This document shows positions 14,258 through 30,645 of a DNA stretch of 64,000 bases, piece after piece. A model generated the notes under the pieces. The model was not told the DNA's origin. It ran no database searches and saw nothing but the letters and a program-made list of their open reading frames with translations. Location of the stretch: assembly GCF_022953055.1 (NCBI RefSeq), contig NZ_JALJEJ010000001.1, positions 496,001 to 560,000 of the forward strand, in the 5' to 3' direction. How positions within the stretch are numbered: position 1 is the stretch's first letter; each line of letters starts with the position of its first letter. Origin of the DNA: Mucilaginibacter straminoryzae (GTDB lineage Bacteria; Bacteroidota; Bacteroidia; Sphingobacteriales; Sphingobacteriaceae). Both the position numbers and the translations under genes were made by a program.

Positions 14258-15472
14258 GTGAACTACGAGCAATTAATACAAGAAGTTGAAAAATTTATAA
14301 AGCGGTATTTCAAAACGCATCACGACGACCGTTACATTTATCATAACGCCGCGCATACCCGGGATGTGGTGAAAGCCGTTACCTTGCTGGCAGACCATTA
14401 CCAGTTAAACGAAGAAGACCGGTTTACCGTAATTACCGCCGCCTGGTTCCACGATACCGGCTATCTGGGCGCTGATGCTACCAACCACGAGGAACGGAGT
14501 GCATTAATCGCTGCGGACTATTTAAAGGGCTTATCGCTTGCGTCGGGTGTTACCCGCAAGGTGCAGGATTGTATTCTGGCTACGCGAATGCCCCAGCACC
14601 CGGAAACTTTGCTCGAAAATATTCTTTGCGATGCAGACCTGTTCCATTTAGGTCAGGATGATTTCGCCCCGAAAAGCCGTTTGATGCGGAAGGAAATGGA
14701 GACGCTGAAGTATAAGCGGATTAAGAAAAGCGACTGGCGCAGGATGACCATCCAGTTAATGGAAAACCATCAGTACCATACCGAATATGCCCAGTTGTTG
14801 CTGAATACCACAAAGGAACGTAATCTCGAAAAGTTAAGAAGTAAGCAAAAAGAGGCAACCGTTACTGTCACACCGGCGATGCCTAACTTGCTGCCGCAAC
14901 CGGGAGGGGTTGATGACAAGACCTGGAAGAAAATATGTACTGAAAAGCCGACCAAGGGCGTTGAGACCATGTTCAGGGTGACGGCTTCCAATCACCAGCG
15001 GTTGAGCGATATGGCTGATAGTAAAGCCAATATCATGATTTCGGTAAACGCCATCCTGATTTCGTTGCTCTTAAGCCTGGTGCTGCGCCGGTTGGATGCG
15101 CATCCGCAGGAAGGTATTCCCGCAATTTGCCTGCTGATTGTGAGTGTAATTACCATGATCTTTGCCATATTAGCTACGCGGCCCAATTTGCCGCCGGGCG
15201 TTTTTACGCGCGAGGATGTAGATTACCGAAGGGTTAACCTGCTCTTCTTTGGCAATTTTTATAAGATGAGCCTCGACGATTACAGCAGGGGAATGGTATC
15301 CATGATGAACGACCGTGATTTTTTATACGGCAGCCTCATCCGCGATCTTTATTACCAGGGTGTGGTGCTGGGTAAAAAATATCACCTGCTCCGAACATGT
15401 TATAATGTGTTTATGTTTGGGTTGGTAGGTTCGGTACTGGCCTTTATTCTTTCGGCAATCATATATGCTTAA
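14258..15472 (+). CDS. HD-domain phosphohydrolase fused to a Pycsar-effector-type membrane domain
   Basis: The N-terminal ~200 residues form an HD domain: His33 (HNAAH), FHD at 64-66 (His65/Asp66) and a distal Asp in LCDADLFH, the usual metal ligands of HD phosphohydrolases or phosphodiesterases. After a linker, the region from about 245 (SNHQRLSDMADSKANIMISV) with membrane helices near 267-287, 295-315 and 381-404 matches the PycTM/DUF5706 domain of Pycsar effectors, which in known systems responds to cyclic UMP or CMP. No pyrimidine cyclase gene lies nearby, so this may be housekeeping nucleotide signalling. The start is GTG; no ATG fits. The next gene follows closely, suggesting an operon. 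Confidence 0.8.
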   Translation: MNYEQLIQEVEKFIKRYFKTHHDDRYIYHNAAHTRDVVKAVTLLADHYQLNEEDRFTVITAAWFHDTGYLGADATNHEERSALIAADYLKGLSLASGVTRKVQDCILATRMPQHPETLLENILCDADLFHLGQDDFAPKSRLMRKEMETLKYKRIKKSDWRRMTIQLMENHQYHTEYAQLLLNTTKERNLEKLRSKQKEATVTVTPAMPNLLPQPGGVDDKTWKKICTEKPTKGVETMFRVTASNHQRLSDMADSKANIMISVNAILISLLLSLVLRRLDAHPQEGIPAICLLIVSVITMIFAILATRPNLPPGVFTREDVDYRRVNLLFFGNFYKMSLDDYSRGMVSMMNDRDFLYGSLIRDLYYQGVVLGKKYHLLRTCYNVFMFGLVGSVLAFILSAIIYA

Positions 15473-15497
15473 ATTACCTATGCTTAATCAAAACACA

Positions 15498-16343
15498 ATG
15501 ATAAAAGTAAGCCTGTTAGCTGTTGTTATCGGCTTTATGGCCTGCAAACAGCAAGAAAAGTATAACAGCCCACCAGGTTATGATCTCACCAAACCTGTAA
15601 AATATAACATGCCGGTAGACCTGGGCGAAATTTCTGGTATTGCTTTTAACCAGGGCAACCCGGATATGCTTTATACAGAGGAGGACGAGAATGGCCGGGT
15701 TTACCAGCTGAAGTTGGGGTCGAGAGATGCAAAGTTCAGCACGTTTAAACAAACCGGCGATTTTGAAGACATTGCAATTTGCAGGCAGCAGGTAATTATG
15801 TTGCAAAGCAAGGGGAAATTGTACACCTTCCCAATTGCCAGTACGGCCAACAAAAAAATAGATAACGCAAAAGAATTTAAAGATTTGCTTCCACCGGGCG
15901 AGTTTGAGGGCATGTATGCCGATGAACAGACCGCCAAGGTTTATGTGCTTTGTAAGCATTGCGAGATAGACAAGACCAGCCATAGCAATAGCGGGTTTAT
16001 TTTTCAATTAGCTCAGGACGGCGGGTTGTCCCCGGCAGGCAACTTCGATATTAAAGTAAAACAGATTGCCAAGCTTGCCGGTGATGATAAAGTAAAGTTT
16101 CACCCTTCCGGCATTAGCCAAAACCCTTTAACCAAAGAATGGTATGTGTTATCGTCGGTTAATAAAATACTGGTTGTGCTGAGTAGTAATTGGGACGTAA
16201 AGCAGGTGTATCACCTTAAACCCAGATACTTTCCGCAACCGGAAGGGATTGCTTTTGACCGCTCCGGTAATTTATACATCTCTAACGAAGGCGACAAAAT
16301 AGATCCGGGTACTGTATTAAAATTCACTTACAACGCAAAGTAG
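15498..16343 (+). CDS. SdiA-regulated-like beta-propeller lipoprotein
   Basis: From the ATG at 15498 the protein is 281 residues with a short lipoprotein signal (IKVSLLAVVIGFMAC; lipidated Cys16). The remainder is a beta-propeller of the SdiA-regulated/YjiK type: GEISGIAF near the start, DFEDIAI, GEFEGMYAD, HPSGISQNP and QPEGIAFDRSGNLYISNEGD. These repeats resemble strictosidine synthase/SMP-30 propellers, but the function of the family is unknown. In-frame ATGs at 15465 and 15480 are possible starts; the first overlaps the HD gene by 8 bp. It ends 10 bp before the large phosphoesterase gene, so the two are probably co-transcribed. Confidence 0.75.
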   Translation: MIKVSLLAVVIGFMACKQQEKYNSPPGYDLTKPVKYNMPVDLGEISGIAFNQGNPDMLYTEEDENGRVYQLKLGSRDAKFSTFKQTGDFEDIAICRQQVIMLQSKGKLYTFPIASTANKKIDNAKEFKDLLPPGEFEGMYADEQTAKVYVLCKHCEIDKTSHSNSGFIFQLAQDGGLSPAGNFDIKVKQIAKLAGDDKVKFHPSGISQNPLTKEWYVLSSVNKILVVLSSNWDVKQVYHLKPRYFPQPEGIAFDRSGNLYISNEGDKIDPGTVLKFTYNAK

Positions 16344-16353
16344 TTATTGGTAA

Positions 16354-19300
16354 ATGAAGAGATTCCTTTACGTACTGTTTTATAGTTTATTGCCATTTTT
16401 TGCTGCAGCGCAGCCGGTGATTACCCACCGGATTATTTACATTGGTGATGCGGGCGAGAATAATAAGTTTCAGGGCGGGGTAATTGGCGACGCCCAAAGT
16501 AAAATTCTTACCGGTAAAACCACCGTTATTTACCTGGGCGATAATATCTATCCTACGGGAATGGGTTTACCGGGCAGCCGCGAAGAAAAGGCTACCGAAC
16601 AGATATTACAGCACCAGTATAAACCCATGCGCGAGAAAGGCGCCCCGGTCTACTTCATTCCGGGTAACCATGATTGGGACCGTATGGGGCCCCGTGGGTT
16701 GGCAAAGATAAAACGGCAATGGCAGTACATCTCAGAACAGAAGGATTCGCTGCTAAAAGTTGTGCCTGAAAATGGCTGTCCTGAGCCTTACGAGATTAAG
16801 ATCAACGATAAATTTGTGGTGATTGCTTTCGATAGTGAGTGGTGGGTTCATATCTTCAGTAAAGCCAACCCCGAAGCAGATTGCGATTGTAATACCGAAG
16901 ACGAAATTATCGCACGCTTTAAAGAGTTACTGGCAAAAAACCGTGATAAGGTGATCATGCTGGCAGATCACCATCCGTTTTATACCTATGGTCACCATGG
17001 TGGCTATTATAACCTGGTCGATTATTTCTTCCCCCTGACCTCTGTCAATCGTAAGCTATACATCCCTTTACCGGTTATCGGCGCGATCTATCCATTCGTT
17101 CGCGGAACATTTTCTGTAGCCGAGGACAAGGGGCATCCGCTGTACAAAACCATGATCGAGCGGATTAACGGGGTATTCAAAGGCTTCCCAAATATGCTGA
17201 ATGTTTCCGGCCACGAACACGGTATACAGTTCATCAAAGATGACGAGCATATGCAGGTAGTGAGCGGTGCAGGTGCAAAAGAAGCCTTTGTAAAGAAAGG
17301 TAAGAACGCCCTCTACGCCAAAACGCTTCCGGGTTATGTCACCGCCGATCTGATGAGCGATAAGAGTATCAAGCTTACTTATTACGCTACGGAAGACACT
17401 GTTTTTAAACAGGTGTTTACTTATACCAAAACTTATAGCCCTGTAAAACCTGTTCCGGTGATTACTAAAGCCCCAATCACGGCGGATAGCATTCTGGTAA
17501 GCGCCCGTCCCAATCTGGACAAAGTGAGTAAATGGCACCGAAAGCTTTACGGAGAAAACTATCGTAAAGAATGGGCTGCTAAGGTAAAACTGCCCGTAAT
17601 CCGCATCAGCGAATTCAAAGGCGGCTTAACGCCCGAAAAGATAGGCGGCAACCATCAGGCGCGGTCATTGCGTTTGACAGATAATAGCGGGAAAGAATGG
17701 CTTTTAAGCAGTATAGAGAAGTATCCGGTAATAGATCTGCCAGAGTCGCGTCGGGAAACTTTTGCAAAGTCGTGGCTGTATGATGCTATTTCGGGTAAAC
17801 ATCCTTATTCGTCACTCATCGCTCCCGAGCTGGCAAAAGCTGTAAAGGTAGCACACACCAAGCCCGTGATTGGGTATGTATCGCCAGATCGTAAGTTAGG
17901 TATTTACGAAGCGGAGTTTGCCGGTACGGTTTGCGTGCTGGAAGAAAGCAAAGGCGCCGGGGCGACAGATAATACCGGTTTGATGATGCGCCAGCTAAAT
18001 GCGGATAATAACAACCGGGTAGATACGCTTGAGTTCTTTAGGGCCAGGCTGCTAGACTGGTTTATGGGCGACTGGGACCAGCAGCAGGACCAGTGGAAAT
18101 GGGCCAACAAGACTCGCGATGGGAACAAATACTACAATGCTGTTCCGCGCGATCGGGATCAAGCGTTTTTCATTAACCAGGGGCTTGTACCAAAAGCAGC
18201 CGCAGCCAAATGGATGGCGCCATACCTGGAAGGCTACAAAGCTAACAAGAACAACATTTCAGACTTTTTTGTAAACGGTCGCGAACTGGATGCACGCTTC
18301 CTTTCCGGGCTTGATTACGTTAAGTGGATGCAGGCTGCGCAGGATTTTAAAGATGCGCTGACAGATAGGGTTCTGGAAAAAGCACTTCTTGCAATGCCGG
18401 AAGCTGCGTATAAGATCAGGCATCAGGAAATGTTCAAACTAATGCAACGCAGGCGCGATCAGTTGGTAAAGGCGGCCGATGTTTACTATAAATTCTTCAA
18501 CCGGGTGGTAGATGTGAAAGCTACCGATGGTGACGAACTGATCACCGTAACAGACACGGGTGCGAGCGATGTGAATGTTTCCATATTTAAAAGGCACCCT
18601 AAGGGCGGGAAAGGCTATCCCGTTTTTTCAAAAACATTTGATCATAGTATTACCCACGAGGTTAGGATCTACGCCTCGCAGGGTAAAGACAGCATTTACA
18701 TCAACGATGGCAAAACTCCGATTAAAGTACGGTTGATTGGTGGCAAAGGGCAGAAAACTTATTATGCGGCTTCATCTACTCACCACACCAAGGTGTATGA
18801 TAAGCAGAGTAATTCTGCTTTTAGCGGTGCCGGGTCGGGTATTATCAGCAAGCATTTTTCTGACGATACTACAACTGTGAGCTATATTCCGGTAAATCCC
18901 TATAACAAAACTATCCCGCTAATCTCAATGGGATATAATTTTGATTACGGTGTCTGGCTGGATGCCGGTTTTAAACGGGTCACCAACGGCTTCAGGAAAG
19001 AGCCCGGCAGCACGCAAGAGTTCGGGGCGATGCATACCTTTGGCAGCAATGCCTGGCGGTTCCGCTATAATGGTACCTGGTTCCGCGCCATCGACAAAGC
19101 CGACCTCGAGATCAAGAGCCGCATTTACACGCCTAATGCCATCAACTTTTTCGGTATCGGAAATGAAACCAGATTTTCAAACGGCATAGATTATTACCGC
19201 ATCCGGTTTGATCTGGCCGAGGTAAGCGCAGCGCTGCGCTGGCATAACCAGGATAGCTCTGTAAGCGTACGTGTTGGCCCGACATTCCAGTATTACCGCT

Positions 19301-19947
19301 ATGTGAACGATCCTAAAGATAAACTGACCGATAACCCGCTCGCTGTCCATAGTTTTGATAGCACTACCATTAGTAAACAGAAGTTCAACGGCGGCCTGAC
19401 GGCATGGTACATACTGGATAAGCGTAATAATCGCAATCTGCCGGACTGGGGCGTTTACCTTAGTTTGAAGTTACAAGGCATGGCCGGGCTCAATACCTGG
19501 TCGCGCAGTTATGTGCAATTTACGCCCGAAGTACAACTTTTTAAAAGCGTAACAAACAACTCGTCATTCGTCATTAGCGAGAAGCTCGGCGGCGGTGTTA
19601 CCCTTGGGCAAACGGCGTTTTATCAGTCGATGTTCCTCGGGGGAGCGACAACTTTGCCTGGTTTCAGGGAAAATCGGTTTGCCGGGCGTCAAATGTTTTA
19701 CAATTTGGTAGAAGCAAGGGTAAAGCTTAATACCTTTGTACCCTATATTCTGCCGGGGCAGTTCGGGTTTACGGGGGGCTATGGCATCGGCAGGGTATGG
19801 GATAACCGGACACCATCGCGGCTATGGCATAATACCGGTTTACTGGGCGCTTATTTCGCACCGGCAGATATGGTTTTATTAAATATCAGTACGGGTTACA
19901 CCGGCGATGGTTTTTATCCGTATATAACACTTAAACTGAACCTTTAA
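16354..19947 (+). CDS. Metallophosphoesterase-kinase-like-outer membrane beta-barrel protein (1197 aa)
   Basis: Three parts follow a signal peptide (1-20). First is a calcineurin-type metallophosphoesterase: GDAG 31-34, GDN 62-64, GNHD 104-107, DHHPFYTYGHHGG and GHEHG. A middle region of about residues 385-730 is clearly homologous to the neighbour at 22438 (shared WHRKLYGENYRKEW / RSLRL / PYSSLIAPELA). It carries GDWDQQQDQW (572-581) and PRDRD (598-602), reminiscent of HipA/FAM20-like kinase catalytic and metal loops. Last is a C-terminal beta-barrel of surface-antigen/BamA type (GGATTLPGFRENRFAG, ending LNL). It is probably anchored in the outer membrane; which side the enzyme domains face is not known. 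It sits between the SdiA-like lipoprotein and the GAF gene. Confidence 0.8.
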   Translation: MKRFLYVLFYSLLPFFAAAQPVITHRIIYIGDAGENNKFQGGVIGDAQSKILTGKTTVIYLGDNIYPTGMGLPGSREEKATEQILQHQYKPMREKGAPVYFIPGNHDWDRMGPRGLAKIKRQWQYISEQKDSLLKVVPENGCPEPYEIKINDKFVVIAFDSEWWVHIFSKANPEADCDCNTEDEIIARFKELLAKNRDKVIMLADHHPFYTYGHHGGYYNLVDYFFPLTSVNRKLYIPLPVIGAIYPFVRGTFSVAEDKGHPLYKTMIERINGVFKGFPNMLNVSGHEHGIQFIKDDEHMQVVSGAGAKEAFVKKGKNALYAKTLPGYVTADLMSDKSIKLTYYATEDTVFKQVFTYTKTYSPVKPVPVITKAPITADSILVSARPNLDKVSKWHRKLYGENYRKEWAAKVKLPVIRISEFKGGLTPEKIGGNHQARSLRLTDNSGKEWLLSSIEKYPVIDLPESRRETFAKSWLYDAISGKHPYSSLIAPELAKAVKVAHTKPVIGYVSPDRKLGIYEAEFAGTVCVLEESKGAGATDNTGLMMRQLNADNNNRVDTLEFFRARLLDWFMGDWDQQQDQWKWANKTRDGNKYYNAVPRDRDQAFFINQGLVPKAAAAKWMAPYLEGYKANKNNISDFFVNGRELDARFLSGLDYVKWMQAAQDFKDALTDRVLEKALLAMPEAAYKIRHQEMFKLMQRRRDQLVKAADVYYKFFNRVVDVKATDGDELITVTDTGASDVNVSIFKRHPKGGKGYPVFSKTFDHSITHEVRIYASQGKDSIYINDGKTPIKVRLIGGKGQKTYYAASSTHHTKVYDKQSNSAFSGAGSGIISKHFSDDTTTVSYIPVNPYNKTIPLISMGYNFDYGVWLDAGFKRVTNGFRKEPGSTQEFGAMHTFGSNAWRFRYNGTWFRAIDKADLEIKSRIYTPNAINFFGIGNETRFSNGIDYYRIRFDLAEVSAALRWHNQDSSVSVRVGPTFQYYRYVNDPKDKLTDNPLAVHSFDSTTISKQKFNGGLTAWYILDKRNNRNLPDWGVYLSLKLQGMAGLNTWSRSYVQFTPEVQLFKSVTNNSSFVISEKLGGGVTLGQTAFYQSMFLGGATTLPGFRENRFAGRQMFYNLVEARVKLNTFVPYILPGQFGFTGGYGIGRVWDNRTPSRLWHNTGLLGAYFAPADMVLLNISTGYTGDGFYPYITLKLNL

Positions 19948-19979
19948 GTTTTTTAACAGGTTTTTACTAATTTCAGCAG

Positions 19980-22340
19980 ATGGAGGTCGACGTATTTCAA
20001 ATCAGTAAATCGCTTACCCTTGAGGGTGAACTGGATACTGCATTTAGTTTCAGACCGTTCATCCGCGACATGCACCATCGTATCGAGACGGAGCATACCA
20101 TCAGGGCGCAGTTCTACCGTTTCGTATTACAGAATTTCAATAACTATCCGCAACTGGATGCACCTATTACGGCAGTAGAGGCTTTAAAATATCCGGATAT
20201 ATTAGAGCTGATCTACGCGGTGCTATCGCCGTCCGTTACAGACGAACACAATTTTCATTGGGCAATAGGTACACCGTTGCCGGGTAACATCCTGTATAGT
20301 ACACCGGCGTTTAAAGATTTTGTGGAACTGTACCACCAGGATCAGAGCGCTACTATTAACCAGGGGCAGGAAGCTTTTAAGAACCGCCAGAAGGATTTCG
20401 TTTACCGGCTCATCCTGAAAAAGCTGTATAAAATATCGTCAGATATAGATAACGATACCATTTATACCAAGCTGGACGAGACCAATTGTCTGCTGGAGAA
20501 GTATTATAAGATCCACATCGATACCGCTTATGTTGATGTAAGCGTAAAAGGCGAATTGCCTACGCTGCGGCCGGAAGTAATTGAACAGTTCCTGCACGAA
20601 GGGGCTGATCCTGGTATTTTCGACCGTATCCTGCCTTTAGATCTGGTAACTATAGAGGGCTTTTCGATCATTACCGTTGAAGATGTTACAGCTCAGCAAT
20701 CAATAGATAATATCCGTTTAGCGTTAGTTAACGATGCCGAAGACCAGAACCAGCTTTTTGCCCAGGTAACGCATTCGCTGCAAACCTTAACCGGCAATAG
20801 CTGCATTGAATTTGGTTTATTGCCTTTCCTGAAAGTGAACGGCAGGCTGGTTTATGATGCGGAGGAATGTTTTAATAGTATCCTGATTCAAACCTCTTCA
20901 GAACAGGGCATGGCGCAGGAAGCTTACCAGGACCTGATCGAGAGCTATATCAAAAAGCCCAAAGCAATTTTCTTTAATGAAATTTGCGAGGATAATGTCT
21001 GCAAGCATTTCTATCTGAAAGCTTTGCAGCAATCGGGTATAAAATCTTACGCATTGCTGCCTGTTTACTATAACCGGCAGTTGGCAGGGGTGATGGAGAT
21101 CTACTCGCGTAAGACGATTATCTATTACGAAAAGCTGCTTTCCAAACTGGAAGCTGCCGTTCCGCTGCTTAGCCAACTACTGCATAATAGTATTGAACAG
21201 TTTAACCAGCGGATAGAAGATATTATTAAAGAGCAATTTACCAGTTTGCAGCACGCCGTAGAATGGAAGTTTAACGAAGCGGCATGGAATTATCTCCGGC
21301 AGGAGCGCCACGGTTCAGAAGCTAACGAGATACAAACCGTTGCGTTTAAAGATCTGTACCCGCTTTATGGCGCAATAGATATCCGGAACTCTACCCATGA
21401 GCGGAATGAAGCCCTGCAGCGCGACCTGGTTTTTCTGCTGGAGAAAATAATTGCGGTACTGCAACAGGCCAATGAACATCCCGAAGCGGAAGTAGATAGC
21501 CGTTTAATTGCCAAATGCGAGGCCTGGCTGCAGCGGATCAATAAACAGGTTACCGATAACGACGATACCCACATCCGTGCCATGCTGCAAACGCAGATCT
21601 ATGCTTTGTTTGATGAACTGAAAGTACGGGTGCCTGCATTGCGTGAAGAGATTGAAGCTTATTTTGAAGCTGAGAATGAAGAAACGGGTGAAGGTTTTAA
21701 GCACCGGCGCGCATTGGAGAACTCTATCGGTAAAATAAACCAGGCATTGAACGGTTATTTCGAAAAGGCGCAGCAGAAGCTTCAGCAGATTTATCCCTGC
21801 TATTTCGAGAAGTTCCGTACCGACGGTGTAGAATATGACGTGTACACCGGCAAATCCCTTGCGCCGGATATGACTTTTGACGAGCAGAAGCTAAATGAGT
21901 TCCGTCGCTGGCAGCTGAACTCGATGATCGATATTGTGCACATCACCAATAAGCTGTTCGACCGGATGGAATGCCACCTGCGTACTACCCAGCTGATCTT
22001 TATCCACTCGCACCCGATTGATATCTGTTTCAGGAAGGACGAACACCGCTTTGATGTGGAGGGGGCGTACAATATCCGTTACGAGGTAATCAAAAAACGT
22101 ATTGATAAAGTACTGATTAAGGATACCGGCGAACGGCTTACCCAGCCCGGAAAAATTGCGCTGGTTTACACCACTTCTGATGAAGCCCAGGAATACCTGA
22201 AGTATATTAAAGAATGCTGCCAGCAGCAATTGTTGACAGGCGAAACCGAACACTTCGAACTGGAAGAATTACAGGGTGTAGCCGGGTTAAGAGCCATCAG
22301 GGTAACGGTTAATGCACCCGAATGCGGCGTCGAAAAATAA
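19980..22340 (+). CDS. GAF-domain protein of unknown function
   Basis: A 786-residue soluble protein with no signal peptide. A GAF-like sensor fold is recognisable around residues 235-400 (QNQLFAQVTHSLQTLTG..., LPVYYNRQLAGVMEIYS). The rest is mostly helical and charged, and no kinase, cyclase or HTH output domain is visible. It starts 32 bp after the giant phosphoesterase gene and is followed 97 bp later by that protein's paralogue, so the three may work together. This arrangement is the main clue. I do not assign a ligand. Confidence 0.7.
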   Translation: MEVDVFQISKSLTLEGELDTAFSFRPFIRDMHHRIETEHTIRAQFYRFVLQNFNNYPQLDAPITAVEALKYPDILELIYAVLSPSVTDEHNFHWAIGTPLPGNILYSTPAFKDFVELYHQDQSATINQGQEAFKNRQKDFVYRLILKKLYKISSDIDNDTIYTKLDETNCLLEKYYKIHIDTAYVDVSVKGELPTLRPEVIEQFLHEGADPGIFDRILPLDLVTIEGFSIITVEDVTAQQSIDNIRLALVNDAEDQNQLFAQVTHSLQTLTGNSCIEFGLLPFLKVNGRLVYDAEECFNSILIQTSSEQGMAQEAYQDLIESYIKKPKAIFFNEICEDNVCKHFYLKALQQSGIKSYALLPVYYNRQLAGVMEIYSRKTIIYYEKLLSKLEAAVPLLSQLLHNSIEQFNQRIEDIIKEQFTSLQHAVEWKFNEAAWNYLRQERHGSEANEIQTVAFKDLYPLYGAIDIRNSTHERNEALQRDLVFLLEKIIAVLQQANEHPEAEVDSRLIAKCEAWLQRINKQVTDNDDTHIRAMLQTQIYALFDELKVRVPALREEIEAYFEAENEETGEGFKHRRALENSIGKINQALNGYFEKAQQKLQQIYPCYFEKFRTDGVEYDVYTGKSLAPDMTFDEQKLNEFRRWQLNSMIDIVHITNKLFDRMECHLRTTQLIFIHSHPIDICFRKDEHRFDVEGAYNIRYEVIKKRIDKVLIKDTGERLTQPGKIALVYTTSDEAQEYLKYIKECCQQQLLTGETEHFELEELQGVAGLRAIRVTVNAPECGVEK

Positions 22341-22437
22341 TAGCTTAAAATTGTGTTAAGTAAAAGCACAAAAGTTGTTAATTAGTGTTATTGTATTTGT
22401 ATCGAAACACAATAAGCCGCTTTTATAGCCGTTGCAC

Positions 22438-25017
22438 ATGCTCAACCATTACCGCAAGAATTTTTTTTGTATAACTTTTATTTTGTCGGCCTGCTTTGGC
22501 AGGGAGTTGCCTGTTCTGGCGCAATCAAAAGATGTAGTCACGGTTGCGGTAGAGCCGGAGTATAACAGGGTAAGCAAGCTGCACCGCAAGTTTTTTGGCG
22601 AGAATTACCGGAAACTCTGGGCTACCCCGGTAACCATGCGGGTTTTTCATTTGAGCAAAGAAAAAGGCGGATTAAAAATTGTAGGCCAGGGCGGCGGTTT
22701 ACAAACCCGAAGCCTGAAACTGAAAGACAGTGCCGGGAACGACTGGGCTTTACGTACCGTGCAGAAATACCCGGAGCGCGCTTTGCCCAAGAATATGCGT
22801 AAAACCATCGTAAAAGATATCCTTCAGGATGAGGTGACCACATCGCACCCTTTTTCGGCGCTGATTGTACCACCGTTGGCAGAAGTTTTGCATATACCGC
22901 ATTCTAACCCCGAGATTGTTTATGTGTCAGACGATCCCGCGTTGGGTGAATACCGTAAGGATTATGCCAATAAGGTGTTTTTATTTGAGGAACGCGATCC
23001 GCTGGATATCGATAAGACTGATAATACCGAAAAAGCGCAGAAGAAGGTAGAGGGCGATAATGATAACCGTTTCAATCAGCGAATGGTACTAAGAGCCCGC
23101 CTGCTGGATATGATCATCGGTGATTGGGACCGCCACGAAGACCAATGGCGCTGGGACAGGGAAAAGAATGATACCGGTATCGTATACCAGCCCATCCCGC
23201 GCGACAGGGACAAAGTATTTTATACCACTTCAGGCATATTTCCCTGGGTGCTGGCACACCAGAGCTTGAAATCACAGCTACAACCGTATAGGGGAGATAT
23301 CCGTGCTATCAGTGAGTGGAACTTTAATGCGCGTTACTTCGATCGTTATTTTCTGACACAATTGAGCAAGGAAGACTGGGAACAGGAGATCCGTTTTGTG
23401 CAGCAAGCCTTGACGGATAACCTGATCGATTCGGCAATGAAACGCATGCCGGCGAATATCTATAAGCAGTCAACCTGGATCACCCCTTACATCAAACAAC
23501 GACGCGATAACATTGAACGCGAGGGGCTGTCTTATTATAGCTTCCTGGCAGACCATGTTGATATCCCCGGTACGGATAAGCACGAACAGTTTGATGTAGA
23601 CGAGCAGGCCGGGGGCAAGGTAGCGGTGACCATCCGTAAGATTAAAAAAGACGGTACGCCTGCCCAGGTAATCTACCAACGAACTTTTGATCCTAAGGAA
23701 ACGAAAGAGATCCGCCTTTATGGTTTAGATGATGCCGATGTTTTCAGCGTAAAAGGCACTGAACCTTCGCCTATTAAAGTACGCATGATCGGTGGTGGCG
23801 GTGTAGATAGTTTTTACGTAGACAAGAACCTGAACAATAAAAGCAAGCTGTTTATTTACGACCGTAAGGACAAGAAAAATATTATTCCGGATGGTTCGCT
23901 GGCCCGCATCAGAACTTCACGCGATTCGGACGTGAACACTTTCGACCGCAAGAATTTTAAATATGACCAGACAGGGCCAATCGTATTGGCCAATTACAAT
24001 ACAGACGAAGGTCTGATCCTGATCGGTGGCATCATGAGCGAGCGCGAAGGCTTCCGGAAATCGCCCTATGCCAGCCATCAATCGTTGTTAGCCGGTTACT
24101 CGCTCGGCAGGCAATCGTTCATGATCAATTACAATGGCGATTTCAGACGGGTAATTGGTAACAATGACCTTAATATTAGTATTGTGTCGCGCGGGCCAAA
24201 TAACGTAAGCAACTTTTTTGGTGTTGGAAACAATACCGTGTTCGACAGGAGCGAAGATGTCGGCATCACCTATTACCGCAACCACTACAACTTTGTAAAT
24301 GCAGATGTACGCCTGTTTCATAATTACAACAGGTGGCAGCTAAGCGGTGGCGTTACCGGGCAGCTCTACTACAGCAGTGATTCTCCTAATAAAGGCCATT
24401 TTTTGTATACCTATGCACAGCAAAACCCTGATCAGAAAGTGTTTGATACCAAAGGTTACGCTGGTGTAATTCTGGGTGTGAAGTTTGACAGCCGGAACAA
24501 TATCACCAATCCGGTAAGCGGCGTTTTCTGGAACACCACCGTGAATACCTCTACTGGTATAGCCAATGCCCATAATACCTATACACAGGTGGCAAGCGAG
24601 TTCAACTTCTACCTTAACCCCGACCGTGATTCTGTACTGATTGTAGCCAACCGTATCGGCGGGGGGACGATCATCGGCCACGCAGAATTCTTTCAGCAGA
24701 TCAAGATCGGTGGTCCGCAAAATCTGAGAGGCTTCCATACTTTCAGGTTTATCGGTAAAACTGGTGTTTATGATAACCTTGAGTTGCGCCTGAAACTGTT
24801 CAACTTTACCTCTTACCTGTTTCCGGGAACGTTTGGTTTAATTGGCTTTAATGATATCGGCCGGGTATGGGTGCCCGATGAAAAATCTAACAAATGGCAT
24901 GATGGTTACGGCGGCGGCTTCTTCCTGATCCCTGCCCGAACGCTGATTGTACAGGCTGCTGTAGGTTTTTCAACAGAAGGTGCGCTGCCTTATATCAGCC
25001 TCGGATACCGCTTTTAA
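22438..25017 (+). CDS. Kinase-like domain plus outer-membrane beta-barrel protein, paralogue of the product at 16354
   Basis: The 859-residue product has a signal peptide (to about LAQS, residue 30). The homologous middle region (KLHRKFFGENYRKLW, RSLKLKDSAGNDWALRTVQK, HPFSALIVPPLAE) carries GDWDRHEDQW (228-237) and PRDRD (254-258). D-R-H-x2-Q followed by a D-R-D about 20 residues on looks like the catalytic and metal-binding loops of HipA/FAM20C-type kinases. The C-terminal ~340 residues form a surface-antigen-type beta-barrel ending in Tyr-Arg-Phe, as outer-membrane proteins do (GGPQNLRGFHTFRF). It lacks the phosphoesterase domain of its paralogue. The ATG at 22438 is preferred to a TTG six bases upstream. 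Confidence 0.78.
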   Translation: MLNHYRKNFFCITFILSACFGRELPVLAQSKDVVTVAVEPEYNRVSKLHRKFFGENYRKLWATPVTMRVFHLSKEKGGLKIVGQGGGLQTRSLKLKDSAGNDWALRTVQKYPERALPKNMRKTIVKDILQDEVTTSHPFSALIVPPLAEVLHIPHSNPEIVYVSDDPALGEYRKDYANKVFLFEERDPLDIDKTDNTEKAQKKVEGDNDNRFNQRMVLRARLLDMIIGDWDRHEDQWRWDREKNDTGIVYQPIPRDRDKVFYTTSGIFPWVLAHQSLKSQLQPYRGDIRAISEWNFNARYFDRYFLTQLSKEDWEQEIRFVQQALTDNLIDSAMKRMPANIYKQSTWITPYIKQRRDNIEREGLSYYSFLADHVDIPGTDKHEQFDVDEQAGGKVAVTIRKIKKDGTPAQVIYQRTFDPKETKEIRLYGLDDADVFSVKGTEPSPIKVRMIGGGGVDSFYVDKNLNNKSKLFIYDRKDKKNIIPDGSLARIRTSRDSDVNTFDRKNFKYDQTGPIVLANYNTDEGLILIGGIMSEREGFRKSPYASHQSLLAGYSLGRQSFMINYNGDFRRVIGNNDLNISIVSRGPNNVSNFFGVGNNTVFDRSEDVGITYYRNHYNFVNADVRLFHNYNRWQLSGGVTGQLYYSSDSPNKGHFLYTYAQQNPDQKVFDTKGYAGVILGVKFDSRNNITNPVSGVFWNTTVNTSTGIANAHNTYTQVASEFNFYLNPDRDSVLIVANRIGGGTIIGHAEFFQQIKIGGPQNLRGFHTFRFIGKTGVYDNLELRLKLFNFTSYLFPGTFGLIGFNDIGRVWVPDEKSNKWHDGYGGGFFLIPARTLIVQAAVGFSTEGALPYISLGYRF

Positions 25018-25075: not shown

Positions 25076-26038
25076 ATGAACCGCATCGACCGTATTTCTG
25101 CCATACTTATACAACTGCAATCCCGGCGGACGGTAAAAGCATCGGATATAGCAGAGCGTTTTGGAATTAGTTTACGCACCGTCTATCGCGATGTAAAAAC
25201 GCTGGAAGAGGCGGGTGTGCCTATCATTGGCGAAGCTGGTGTAGGCTATTCGCTGGTTGAGGGGTACCGGTTGCCGCCGGTAATGTTTACACGCGAAGAA
25301 GCGGCAGCGTTTCTTACCGCAGAAAAGCTGGTAGATAAACTGACCGATGAAGCGAATAGCGCCAGCTACCGCTCAGCCATGTATAAGATAAAATCCGTAT
25401 TGCGGAACAGCGACAAGGATTTTCTGGAAACCATTGATAACCGCATCGAAGTGATTCGTTCGCGGGGCGCAAGACATAAGCAGTTGCGGCTGAACCCGCT
25501 TCAGGATATCCTGCAGGCTATTGCCCACAAAAAGGTATTGCAAATTGTTTATCAGCCTGCTTACCGCGCCGAGGCCACCGAACGGGCGATTGAACCGGTA
25601 GGTGTGTTTTATCTGGATAATAACTGGCACCTGATTGCTTATTGCCGTTTAAGGAAGGATTACCGCGATTTTCGTTTCGATCGTCTGATGAGTATGGAAT
25701 GTACTGATGAAATTTTTTCAGCATCGCATCCGCAGTTACAGGAACATATCCGTTGTATATTTAAAGATCAGCAGTTATTTAATGTGACGATAGAGGTGAA
25801 GAAAGAAGTGGCCATGTACCTGGGCGAGCAAAAGTATTATCACGGTTATGTAGGTGAAAGCATTATTGGCGATGTGATAGAAATGAAGTTTGTCTGCTGG
25901 TCTTTAGAAGGGTTTTCGCGTTGGTTTGTGATGTTTGCAGATATGGCGCGCATAGTAGAACCCGCGGAGTTGAATGAACGGATTCATACGCTGGTAAGAA
26001 AAATTTCAGAAAATTTAACTACCTCAAAATCCTGCTGA
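25076..26038 (+). CDS. YafY/WYL-domain transcriptional regulator
   Basis: A 320-residue regulator with an N-terminal HTH_11 winged helix (VKASDIAERFGISLRTVYRDVKTLEEAGV, about residues 20-50). A WYL domain from about residue 145 (KVLQIVYQPAYRAE, IEPVGVFYLDNNWHLIAYC) and a WCX extension at the C-terminus follow. WYL domains sense ligands such as nucleic acids or small molecules; the ligand here is unknown. The next gene encodes a DinB-family protein, a pairing I know from Bacteroidota. Its stop codon forms part of an inverted repeat that may be its own operator. Confidence 0.9.
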   Translation: MNRIDRISAILIQLQSRRTVKASDIAERFGISLRTVYRDVKTLEEAGVPIIGEAGVGYSLVEGYRLPPVMFTREEAAAFLTAEKLVDKLTDEANSASYRSAMYKIKSVLRNSDKDFLETIDNRIEVIRSRGARHKQLRLNPLQDILQAIAHKKVLQIVYQPAYRAEATERAIEPVGVFYLDNNWHLIAYCRLRKDYRDFRFDRLMSMECTDEIFSASHPQLQEHIRCIFKDQQLFNVTIEVKKEVAMYLGEQKYYHGYVGESIIGDVIEMKFVCWSLEGFSRWFVMFADMARIVEPAELNERIHTLVRKISENLTTSKSC

Positions 26039-28623: not shown

Positions 28624-30645
28624 TTAGCGGTTGGGGCGTCCCGGTCTTTCGCGTTCTTGCTCCTGTTGCTGCTGACGTTGCTGTTGCTGCTGTTGCATTT
28701 GTTGTTGGCGCTGTTGCTCCATCTGCTGCTGGCGTTGCTGTTGTTGCTGTTGCATTTGTTGTTGGCGCTGTTGCTCCATCTGCTGCTGTTGTTGCTGCTG
28801 CATTTGTTGCTGGCGCTGTTGCTCCATCTGCTGCTGACGTTGCTGTTGTTGTTGCTGCATCTGTTGCTGGCGCTGTTGCTCCATCTGCTGCTGACGTTGC
28901 TGTTGTTGTTGCTGCTGCATTTGTTGCTGGCGCTGTTGATCCATCTGCTGCTGACGTTGCTGCTGCATTTGTTGTTGGCGCTGTTGATCCATCTGCTGCT
29001 GACGCTGCTGTTGTTGTTGCTGCTGTATTTGTTGCTGCTGTATTTGTTGCTGCTGTATTTGTTGCTGGCGTTGCTGATCCATTTGCTGCTGGCGTTGCTG
29101 ACGCCATTGTTCGCGCTGCTGATCGGTAGGTTGGCTTTGTTGCTGGCCTTGCTGTTGCTGCTGCATTTGCTGCTGGCGTTGTTGACGCCATTGTTCGCGT
29201 TGCTGATCAGTAGGCTGACTTGGTTGCTGACCTTGCTGCATTTGCTGCTGACGTTGTTGACGCCATTGCTCGCGCTGCTGATCGGTAGGTTGGATGGATT
29301 GCTGGCCTTGCTGTTGCTGCATTTGCTGCTGGCGTTGTTGACGCCATTGCTCACGCTGTTGATCAGTAGGCTGGCTTGGCTGCTGACCTTGTTGACCTTG
29401 CTGCTGCTGTTGTATTTGTTGCTGGCGTTGTTGGCGCCATTGTTCGCGCTGCTGATCAGTAGGCTGGCCCTGTTGCTGGCCTTGCTGCTGTTGCATTTGC
29501 TGCTGGCGTTGTTGGCGCCATTGTTCGCGCTGCTGATCAGTAGGCTGGCCCTGTTGCTGGCCTTGCTGCTGTTGCATTTGCTGCTGGCGTTGTTGACGCC
29601 ATTGCTCACGCTGCTGATCAGTAGATTGGCCGGATTGCTGGCCTTGCTGGCGCCATTGTTGTCCCTGTTGATTGTTAGGCATACCTTGCTGCTGAGGCTG
29701 GCCTGGATTACCAGGACGGGTTGGCCTGTCTATGGTCTTTACAAAAGGCCTGTTATTATTGTTGTTGTTATTATTTCTTGCCTCTTGTGCCAGCCGTTGC
29801 GCATTTTGATAGTTTATGCGACCAAAGTCACGGTCGCCTATCCTGTCGTTAGGGTGGGCATTACGGTAAGCATCAGCATCTACCACACGTATCGGGCGGG
29901 TAGGGGCATTGCGGTTCACCTGCGGGCGATAGATATTCAAGGCATCATTCCTTAACATCGGCCTCCCTGGGCGGCTGATATCATTAATGTGATACACGTT
30001 TACCGGGCCACGCACCACACGCTGAATGTCTTCCCTGCGCGGGCCGCACCAATACGGGCGGTTGTTCACCACGTAGGTATTGCGTATAATAGTAGTTCGG
30101 TTAATAATATTCACCACCCTTGGGCGCGGAACGTAATAATTGTAAATAGCCGGGCTGGTAATATAGGCGCGCGGAGCGAAGGTCCAGTAATAGTCTGGCA
30201 CATCGAAACCGCCAAAGCTTACATCGATACTTACACCTGGGGTTAAAGGTGCCCAGCCGTAATATTCGCCGCCGCTTCTCCAGCTAACCCATGCCGGTCC
30301 CCACTCGTAGCCGGGTATCCATTCCCAGCCGTAGTAATCATCAAAACGCCAGCGGCCGTAGTGGAACGGCGCCCAGCCCCAGTCGTAATCAGATACCCAG
30401 GTATTACCGTAATCGGTAAGCACCCAGTGTCCATTGGTGGCATAGGGTTGAAAATCCTGGTCTACATCGGGCACCCAAACCGTACCGTACTGTGGGTCGT
30501 CAACCCAGGTGCCGTAAGGCTGTAATTCGTCATAAAACTCCTGGAAAGAAATGGTAGCGCCCTGCGCCTGCGTTTTATGTGGTATCGCCGCTACTAACAG
30601 CATAAGCAGTAAGCTGCGGCAGAAAAGTGAAATTAACTTCTTCAT
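28624..30645 (-). CDS. Exported DUF6600-like protein with a long Q/R-rich repeat tail
   Basis: A 673-residue protein. A signal peptide (about 1-27, cleaved at TQAQ) precedes a compact Trp/Tyr-rich domain (about 30-170) with repeats such as YGTWVDDPQYGTVWVPDV and DYGWGW-type motifs, as in DUF6600 proteins. From about residue 300 to 665 it is almost entirely Gln, Arg and Met. This includes seven units of DQQREQWRQQRQQQ and then many RQQQM(D/E)QQ units, ending in a basic RPGRPNR. The tail is probably disordered and possibly nucleic-acid- or surface-binding. Long poly-Leu and poly-Ala frames on other frames are artefacts of the repeats. Confidence 0.8.
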   Translation of the reverse strand: MKKLISLFCRSLLLMLLVAAIPHKTQAQGATISFQEFYDELQPYGTWVDDPQYGTVWVPDVDQDFQPYATNGHWVLTDYGNTWVSDYDWGWAPFHYGRWRFDDYYGWEWIPGYEWGPAWVSWRSGGEYYGWAPLTPGVSIDVSFGGFDVPDYYWTFAPRAYITSPAIYNYYVPRPRVVNIINRTTIIRNTYVVNNRPYWCGPRREDIQRVVRGPVNVYHINDISRPGRPMLRNDALNIYRPQVNRNAPTRPIRVVDADAYRNAHPNDRIGDRDFGRINYQNAQRLAQEARNNNNNNNNRPFVKTIDRPTRPGNPGQPQQQGMPNNQQGQQWRQQGQQSGQSTDQQREQWRQQRQQQMQQQQGQQQGQPTDQQREQWRQQRQQQMQQQQGQQQGQPTDQQREQWRQQRQQQIQQQQQGQQGQQPSQPTDQQREQWRQQRQQQMQQQQGQQSIQPTDQQREQWRQQRQQQMQQGQQPSQPTDQQREQWRQQRQQQMQQQQQGQQQSQPTDQQREQWRQQRQQQMDQQRQQQIQQQQIQQQQIQQQQQQQRQQQMDQQRQQQMQQQRQQQMDQQRQQQMQQQQQQQRQQQMEQQRQQQMQQQQQQRQQQMEQQRQQQMQQQQQQQMEQQRQQQMQQQQQQRQQQMEQQRQQQMQQQQQQRQQQQEQERERPGRPNR
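28660..29100. repeat. Short tandem CAG-type repeats inside the Q-rich gene
   Basis: Imperfect repeats of roughly 40-70 bp built from TTGCTGCTG-like words, encoding RQQQMEQQ/RQQQMDQQ units. All differences keep the reading frame. Confidence 0.7.
29102..29640. repeat. Seven in-frame tandem repeats of 75-93 bp in the Q-rich gene
   Basis: The word CGCCATTG(T/C)TC recurs at 29102, 29186, 29261, 29342, 29435, 29516 and 29597. The spacings (84, 75, 81, 93, 81, 81) are all multiples of three, so unit number can change without breaking the protein. Confidence 0.8.

Follow-up and report, generated by a model that had tools for sequence, protein, structure and literature searches.

Can a bacterium add phosphate groups to molecules outside its cytoplasm, and take them off again? 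The question arises from a stretch of 64,000 nucleotides of Mucilaginibacter straminoryzae (contig NZ_JALJEJ010000001.1, positions 496,001 to 560,000; this whole stretch is called the window below), in which two long genes encode proteins, here called P1 and P2, that end in an outer-membrane beta-barrel (Table 1). An earlier look at the letters alone, the original prediction, had noticed in both of them two short motifs that resemble the catalytic and metal-binding loops of HipA/FAM20C-type kinases. From the analysis described here it appears fairly probable that P1 and P2 represent an unnamed family of atypical kinases, from the CotH/HipA/PI4K type II (PI4K-II) branch of the kinase fold, and that this family works in the cell envelope. 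What was computed is a kinase fold in the predicted model, a Lys, an Asp and a DxD conserved in most members sampled, a TRAP-like phosphatase, a barrel without POTRA, export segments in most forms, and a strong linkage to genes of the PycTM family, and these findings suggest that in Bacteroidota phosphate groups may be put on and taken off outside the cytoplasm.

Both motif-bearing open reading frames (ORFs) were found where they had been placed, GDWD...DQW and PRDRD can be read in both P1 and P2, and the residue numbers given for P2, Asp231 and Asp258, are correct when the protein is counted from the ATG at 22438 (the program-made ORF list begins at an upstream TTG, 22432). The two proteins are indeed paralogous, with 32% identity over 842 residues (272/842; 443 bits, E 3e-143), and their homology extends well past the two motifs. 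Elsewhere in the same genome there is a third paralogue, whose kinase-like domain shares 57% identity with that of P2. The fusions that had been described are also borne out by Pfam: the Omp85 barrel scores 33.6 bits in P1 and 34.6 bits in P2 (cut-off 24), and Metallophos scores 32.1 bits in P1 (cut-off 21.5). The motifs are not there by chance, because their columns are well conserved in the family to which they belong, and this family has members in 111 of 296 Bacteroidota genomes.

What kind of fold carries these motifs? Homologous loci were collected by scanning contigs with the pattern WDRHx[DG]QW, which gave at least 80 loci, of which 80 were analysed; going by the names of the organisms, all of them presumably come from Bacteroidota, outside of which no systematic search was made. 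The domain of P2 was aligned with that of P1 and with those from 71 of the 80 loci, and the resulting 73 rows served as the input for AlphaFold2. The model has a mean predicted local distance difference test score (pLDDT) of 90.4 and a predicted template modelling score (pTM) of 0.90 (73 sequences). According to DSSP, a long helix is followed by the loop with Asp231, then by a beta hairpin, and then by the DxD of Asp256 and Asp258; because of this order, and because the profile alignments with CotH described below are in the same register, the motifs fall at the catalytic and metal loops of a kinase. Foldseek returned 446 matches from the PDB at E <=10, 12 of them at E <=0.001. The best 50 of the 446 rows are kinase-fold proteins, including CtkA, HipT-type kinases, PI4K-II, Rio2 and HipA, if we take as such also the rows without a "kinase" label (7cz2, 7cy2, 1zyl, 3dnu, 3dnt and 6fai_l are among them, with MSMEG_1954, YihE and 'MDT protein' among the names). 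The accessible text of PMC12189002 counts YihE (1zyl) among the atypical kinases. The best row is CtkA at E 2.1e-5, and the best match spans residues 39-343 of the model.

A second comparison was made with VIA-align 2, in which rows within 1 Z are regarded as tied and models without a clear match typically peak at Z 7 to 8. PI4K-II entries fill the top rows (14.0, 13.8), PI4K-II beta with 260 aligned residues at 4.9 Å, followed by CotH (5jd9; Z 13.6, 242 aligned, 4.0 Å), CtkA (12.6), HipA (2wiu and 4pu5; 10.9) and, under several other kinase groups, Golgi casein kinase 4kqa (10.1), which we take to be a FAM20 protein. Since the rows of PI4K-II and CotH lie within 1 Z, structure alone cannot choose between these two. 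The region of about 370 residues in P1 and P2 is thus predicted, with high model confidence, to have a kinase fold; the non-kinase fold that had been named beforehand as speaking against the proposal was not obtained, and HipA, CotH and a FAM20-type kinase, the comparisons suggested with it, are all among the matches.

Which family is the nearest by sequence? Scans of P1 and P2 found no Pfam family, and likewise no NCBIfam family, in the about 370 residues ahead of the barrel linker, and no consistent family of either collection came out of scans of 16 and of 73 homologues. CotH (PF08757) matched one of the 16 homologues at E 0.013 and none of the 73, and did not match P1 or P2 above its curated cut-off, while the models HipA_C (PF07804), Fam20C and PI3_PI4_kinase (PF00454) matched neither P1 or P2 nor any of the 16 or 73 homologues. 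A profile search of 99 genomes with PF00454 gave no matches, with its controls silent as well. When the PDB sequences were searched with the domain profile, the only three matches were at E 0.85 or worse and none was relevant, PI4K-II not being among them.

Profiles of the domain family, built from 129 sequences in the widest set, were also compared by hhalign with 15 or 20 Bacteroidota CotH sequences. The E values were 0.0075 (probability 5%), 0.0023 (12%) and, for the 129-sequence set, 0.00024 (44%), and in every run GDWD lies on the catalytic loop of CotH and PRDRD on its P-x-DYD. As decoys, a phosphatase profile gave E 0.11 and a barrel profile E 0.3. The HipA profile, which left out loci L166 and L180 (stops), gave E 0.12 with the catalytic loop on the N-x-D-x-H loop of HipA; this is no better than the decoys, so HipA is unsupported by sequence and was rejected as the nearest sequence family. 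CotH and HipA compared with each other gave E 0.0014. Of the proposed HipA/FAM20C-type kinase, then, the likeness in fold has held, while the nearest of the tested families by sequence is CotH, not HipA. The solved CotH chain reads NFDGFVHNYALY, then PWDYD, and the distance from the catalytic Asp to the first metal Asp is 23 residues against 25 in the P1/P2 family. CotH keeps the residues that match D166, N171 and D184 of PKA, as stated in the accessible text of PMC12189002.

Could the kinase resemblance be a mere coincidence of two short motifs? The silence of the Pfam and NCBIfam kinase families, and a CotH match in 1/16 homologues (E 0.013) that was not repeated among 73, would fit such a view, but it is contradicted by the fold comparison, in which a high-confidence model matches kinase-fold proteins, at best over residues 39-343, and we regard it as extremely improbable. 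Another possibility, which we hold to be tentative, is that P1 and P2 are active lipid or small-molecule kinases similar to PI4K-II, that their substrates are lipid head groups of the outer membrane, and that the phosphatase acts on the same lipids. PI4K-II is at the top of the VIA-align rows (Z 14.0, 13.8), the enzyme is anchored at a membrane, and a neighbouring gene has a weak phytase-like match, below cut-off. On the other side, the protein kinase CotH (13.6) scores less than 1 Z lower and so counts as tied, it is also the family preferred by sequence profile, in a comparison that did not include PI4K-II, and no lipid-binding feature was identified. The phytase-like neighbour together with PI4K-II had also brought inositol-lipid metabolism to mind, an idea that found no further support and was dropped.

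If the family consists of kinases, are the residues for catalysis kept? The domain was found in 139 places of the 111 genomes, and residues were counted in 137 of them, the two left out both being contig fragments of one genome, G280. Lys110 of P2 is kept in 131 of the 137 rows, Asp131 in 130, Asp231 in 126, Asp256 in 128 and Asp258 in 126, and 121 rows keep Lys110, Asp231 and Asp256 together. At least one of these three is lost in 16 rows, and two or more in 8 of the 16, so some members are probably dead. Arg replaces Asp256 in four rows (L035, L036, L037 and L040), Ser replaces Asp231 in copies at L049 and L050, and P1 itself is atypical, since the residue next to its catalytic Asp is Gln576 where the family usually has Arg (1/137). 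A separate alignment of 46 rows was made from P1 and 45 of 46 ORFs of the same three-domain type (phosphatase, kinase and barrel; "tri-domain" below); L133, a near copy of L132, was left out of it, while both are counted in the gene-content tallies per locus. In these 46 rows Lys456, Glu530, Asp600 and Asp602 are invariant, and ligands of the phosphatase vary (D63 34/46, H289 34/46). It is to be noted that the pattern fixes the letters of the catalytic loop in the 73- and 46-row alignments, except in P1 and P2 of the window themselves.

These counts bear on the view of the domain as a pseudokinase, which would transfer no phosphate and whose kinase fold would serve on the barrel as a module for binding or scaffolding. 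The losses in 16 rows, the Gln that occupies the metal-binding Asn position in 127 rows, and a compartment thought to be poor in ATP would be in line with it, as would the loci L049, L050 and L138, where adjacent kinase-beta genes include one copy with Ser for the catalytic Asp while the others have Asp. We nevertheless consider this view unlikely: 121 rows keep all three residues, and in the 46 P1-type rows, a set enriched for intact loops, Lys456, Asp600 and Asp602 do not vary while the phosphatase ligands do. The neighbours at L049, L050 and L138 are, by their residues, possible kinase-pseudokinase pairs, for which FAM20C and FAM20A are a precedent.

How, then, is the domain delivered to the envelope? 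Going by how much sequence flanks the kinase domain on either side, and not by domain scans, the family occurs in four forms: phosphatase-kinase-beta-barrel, kinase-beta-barrel, kinase-beta (about 500-590 residues) and kinase alone (about 430 residues). Among the matches listed, the first is the sole form in 43 of the 80 loci and the second in 29. The kinase-alone ORFs are those of L044-L047 and L052; two further apparent kinase-only loci are not true stand-alone kinases, because at L077 the contig ends within the ORF and at L085 the ORF is interrupted, and the second ORF of L075, also cut, was classed as kinase-beta-type (K+L). By a hydropathy rule that chooses the best start, and is not a trained predictor, 109 of 116 kinase ORFs have an N-terminal hydrophobic segment: 42/48 kinase-barrel, 48/49 phosphatase-kinase-barrel, 12/12 kinase-beta and 7/7 of the remaining ORFs (two of them cut or interrupted). 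Lipobox-like sites are present in 8 of the 12 kinase-beta ORFs, and membrane anchors at the N-terminus of the five kinase-only ORFs. At L048 and L055 the three modules are adjacent genes, with kinase plus beta and phosphatase as apparent lipoproteins and the barrel on its own (by Pfam for L048); these split genes therefore support the domain limits and suggest that the parts act together.

The full-length model of P1 (45 homologues; pLDDT 84.6, pTM 0.73) consists of a signal helix (2-18), the phosphatase up to about 360, the kinase domain (379-715), an all-beta segment (718-835) and 16 strands (852-1195), the relative placement of which is unreliable because of the pTM of 0.73. With the full-length model Foldseek gave BamA at E 1e-10 and the TamA barrel at a TM-score of 0.79 on the target; the only other listed row is GAP50, without a range, which from the fold of GAP50 probably corresponds to the modelled phosphatase. 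The PDB sequences nearest to the phosphatase are TRAP/purple acid phosphatases (best E 1.5e-7), and its motifs GDAG, LGDN, GNHDW, DHH and GHEH are present; with PF00149 above its cut-off and these metal-ligand motifs, P1 belongs to the calcineurin-like/purple acid phosphatases. Membership in the Omp85 superfamily follows from PF01103 above its cut-off and the 16-strand barrel, NCBIfam Omp85_fam being below its cut-off. No Pfam POTRA was matched ahead of the barrel in P1 or P2, and the all-beta segment stands there instead in the P1 model.

By the default topology of Omp85 proteins, N-terminal domains are on the periplasmic side. It might also be imagined that the catalytic domains pass through the barrel, or alongside it, to the cell surface, where they would use extracellular ATP; such a route has been proposed for the patatin domain of PlpD. 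In PlpD an enzyme domain that precedes an Omp85 barrel comes to lie on the surface, according to the accessible text of PMC4104836, but the same text gives PlpD a POTRA, in place of which P1 has its all-beta segment. Since the anchors of the five kinase-only ORFs, the lipobox sites in 8/12 kinase-beta ORFs and the split operon need no passage through a barrel, we find surface display somewhat unlikely.

Table 1. Features of P1, P2 and the neighbouring genes (positions in the window).
Feature	Position	Strand	Basis
P1, 1197 aa: signal peptide, phosphatase, kinase-like domain, beta domain, Omp85 barrel	16354..19947	+	ORF, Pfam, full-length AlphaFold2 model
P1 purple-acid-phosphatase (ACP5/TRAP)-like metallophosphoesterase, aa 20-360	16411..17433	+	PF00149; nearest PDB sequences; motifs
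P1 predicted kinase-fold domain, aa 379-715	17488..18498	+	Secondary structure of full-length model; homology to modelled P2 domain
P1 Lys456, candidate ATP-binding Lys	17719..17721	+	46/46 P1-type rows
P1 GDWDQQQDQWKW, aa 572-583, candidate catalytic loop (Asp575)	18067..18102	+	Sequence, conservation
P1 PRDRD, aa 598-602, candidate metal-binding DxD (Asp600, Asp602)	18145..18159	+	Both Asp in 46/46 P1-type rows
P1 all-beta segment between kinase and barrel, aa 718-835	18505..18858	+	DSSP of full-length model; not POTRA by secondary structure
P1 16-strand Omp85 barrel, aa 852-1195	18907..19938	+	16 long strands in model; Foldseek
P2, 859 aa: signal peptide, kinase-like domain, beta domain, Omp85 barrel	22438..25017	+	ORF, Pfam
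P2 predicted kinase-fold domain, aa 29-395 (region modelled)	22522..23622	+	AlphaFold2, Foldseek, VIA-align
P2 Lys110, candidate ATP-binding Lys	22765..22767	+	K in 131/137 rows
P2 Asp131, acidic residue, helix taken as alpha-C (helix 96-105 of model)	22828..22830	+	D in 130/137 rows
P2 GDWDRHEDQWRW, aa 228-239, candidate catalytic loop (Asp231 at 23128-23130)	23119..23154	+	Asp231 in 126/137 rows
P2 PRDRD, aa 254-258, candidate metal-binding DxD (Asp256, Asp258)	23197..23211	+	128/137 and 126/137 rows
P2 beta domain, approximate	23554..23916	+	Alignment to P1 718-835
P2 Omp85 barrel, approximate start	23968..25014	+	PF01103; alignment to P1 852-1195
HD phosphohydrolase + PycTM membrane protein, first cluster gene	14258..15472	+	PycTM E 6.8e-33, HD E 2.8e-5 (Pfam)
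SdiA-regulated/phytase-like beta-propeller	15465..16343	+	PF06977 E 3.6e-9; overlaps HD-PycTM by 8 bases, 10 bases ahead of P1
786-aa protein between P1 and P2	19980..22340	+	GAF_2 E 0.012, below cut-off

Who are the neighbours of these genes? HD-PycTM, propeller, P1, the GAF-like protein and P2 share a strand and are separated by -8, 10, 32 and 97 bases, so the five genes probably form one operon. Among the matches listed, a propeller homologue is present in 22 of the 43 loci with only the tri-domain form and a homologue of the 786-aa GAF-like protein in 9; the latter recurs near kinase genes in 17 of 108 loci searched. HD-PycTM homologues are found in 35/43 tri-domain-only against 4/29 kinase-barrel-only loci, some of which are cut by contig ends. 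Just after P2, at a distance of 58 bases, there is an ORF like a transcription regulator (25076-26038; helix-turn-helix start, WYL-like by eye), which may belong to the cluster, and further on a 673-aa ORF (28624-30645) has a long, repetitive tail rich in Gln and Arg, mirrored in other frames by ORFs that are probably spurious.

The link with PycTM was followed over the 296 genomes. Copies that score at least 84 bits to PF18967, a border chosen after the list had been viewed, are called strong; there are 105 of them in 99 genomes, and 26 weak copies. Within 12 kb of a kinase gene lie 80 of the 105 strong copies and none of the 26 weak ones. Kinase and strong PycTM occur together in 93 genomes, strong PycTM only in 6, the kinase only in 18 and neither in 179, giving a Fisher p of 3e-50, in which, as in all these linkage counts, shared ancestry is ignored. 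In the genome of the window both strong copies adjoin kinase paralogues. The locations cited for the high- and low-scoring groups of PF18967 are 14258-15472 of the window and G000:C5:10832-11164.

The 80 PycTM genes near a kinase are of different kinds. In 58 the frame is at least 380 residues, the length of HD-PycTM, the HD domain being confirmed by Pfam in the window gene and L266 and assigned by frame length in the others; the other 22 have shorter frames, and 15 of these have a close class III cyclase no more than 12 kb away, while the remaining 7 do not. Of 64 matches to such a cyclase, 23 are within 12 kb of a kinase gene, all 23 being among the 28 best-scoring ones (distances were measured with a specific cyclase domain in place of PF00211). 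At L263 and L264 a cyclase with TPR repeats sits between the kinase gene and PycTM. A nucleotide theme is not valid for all loci, because 7 of the 80 have neither the HD length nor a close cyclase. One more arrangement, the third, is seen at L265 (2514-3230), where a PycTM gene without HD adjoins the propeller and the tri-domain protein and no cyclase was called in 12 kb. Elsewhere, in two genomes with no kinase match, cyclase and PycTM share one frame of about 380 residues in an apparent fusion (G042:C1:228962-230020 and G119:C261:8396-9469). Because 80/105 high-scoring copies are near a kinase gene and 0/26 low-scoring ones are, the high-scoring PF18967 group may not be a defence system.

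How might the parts work together? The barrel would anchor the enzymes at the outer membrane, their N-terminal domains facing the periplasm, and the kinase domain would bind a nucleotide between its lobes, Asp231 acting as the catalytic base and Asp256 and Asp258 holding the metal. It would phosphorylate a protein of the envelope or a lipid head group, and the phosphatase would undo this phosphorylation or recycle the product, while the inner-membrane PycTM protein, with its cyclase or phosphohydrolase, could link the enzyme to a nucleotide signal. One may go further and imagine that the barrel protein is the part in the outer membrane of a signalling system that spans the envelope and is widespread in Bacteroidota: a signal from a cyclase or HD phosphodiesterase would go to PycTM, and from there to the outer-membrane enzyme that modifies targets in the envelope, with a donor outside the cytoplasm that is possibly passed by PycTM. 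We regard this larger scheme as quite unlikely; if it were true, the effectors of Pycsar defence would make up a single branch of a PycTM family that is larger and mostly unconnected with defence.

Several points weigh against an active envelope kinase. That these proteins catalyse anything would follow from the predicted fold and residues, and the periplasm is thought to be poor in ATP, which leaves the phosphate donor unexplained. In the best 50 of the 446 Foldseek rows the TM-scores, taken on the query, range from 0.21 to 0.42, the hhalign probabilities to CotH are low (5%, 12%, 44%), and HipA (E 0.12) did no better than the decoys. A key residue is lacking in 16 of 137 rows, at least two in 8 of them; the 16 include L213 and L217, where Gly stands for Asp231 in frames of tri-domain length (1255 and 1262 residues), and the position of PKA Asn171 has Gln in 127 rows and Asn in 5. 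The search pattern over-represents D231, R232, H233, Q236 and W237 in the 73- and 46-row alignments and may favour intact members, and to these come the border for strong PycTM drawn after viewing and the ancestry left out of the linkage counts. Weighed together with the fold, the conserved residues and the export segments, they leave an atypical kinase of the envelope, in our view, fairly probable.

Members were also met in other settings. Five plasmid records carry the domain, all from Bacteroidota genera, and a divergent member, annotated as a hypothetical protein, is on a plasmid record of Parabacteroides distasonis (L262, 4935-7394). In one genome a CotH-family match is about 1.5 kb away from a member of the domain family (the two loci are G019:C15:16534-17403 and 18854-19924).

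Is any of this new? A kinase and a phosphatase in one envelope protein had been expected to be novel. For the phosphatase this does not hold: a list of 2014 already has a 'Metallo' subfamily for those Omp85 proteins that contain PF00149, with the domain termed a metalloprotease, as far as the accessible text of PMC4104836 goes. The kinase half has stood, in that no report of a kinase domain in an Omp85 protein was found in the open-access literature, which lacks most subscription journals. A survey of new kinase families in Legionella places none in an Omp85 protein in its accessible text (PMC9758233), and OMP76 of Riemerella (710 residues), considered as prior art, was set aside, the accessible part of its description containing no such architecture. 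The pairing of kinase and phosphatase in one protein matters, since it raises the question of the phosphate donor outside the cytoplasm, where no ATP for a kinase is expected. Conserved residues of the domain are available for mutation, and the PycTM family, named after anti-phage defence, gains a likely partner outside defence.

With which known systems should the family be compared? HipA, HipT and CtkA give the best Foldseek rows, and the catalytic loop lies on the N-x-D-x-H loop of HipA, but the profile E of 0.12 is at decoy level, and the P1/P2 family is exported whereas HipA and HipT are cytoplasmic toxins; no HipB-type antitoxin was seen among the window neighbours in the general Pfam scan, a systematic search not having been made. 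FAM20 resembles it in fold (4kqa, Z 10.1) and as a kinase that acts outside the cytoplasm, and differs in being animal, in its lower Z and in its motifs. PI4K type II has the best VIA-align Z (14.0, 260 aligned), while the matched entries are human lipid kinases and the P1/P2 family has no sequence match to PF00454 or, in the PDB, to PI4K-II. In Pycsar, made of a cyclase and a PycTM effector, the likeness is in the genes linked to the kinase, which are PycTM with HD or PycTM near a cyclase; the difference is that kinase-linked PycTM scores high against PF18967, and 0/26 low-scoring copies are near a kinase. The 'Metallo' subfamily (Heinz and Lithgow, 2014; PMC4104836) shares the Omp85 barrel and the N-terminal PF00149 domain, and the word "kinase" is absent from the main text of that paper; we infer that its members are tri-domain proteins of the P1 type. 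Closest by sequence profile among the families tested is CotH (PF08757; 5jd9, 5jda), similar in fold, catalytic Asp, beta hairpin and P-x-D-x-D at nearly equal spacing, and from it the P1/P2 family, with no Pfam match above cut-off, is set apart by Gln in place of Asn, by export, and by fusion to a barrel or a phosphatase.

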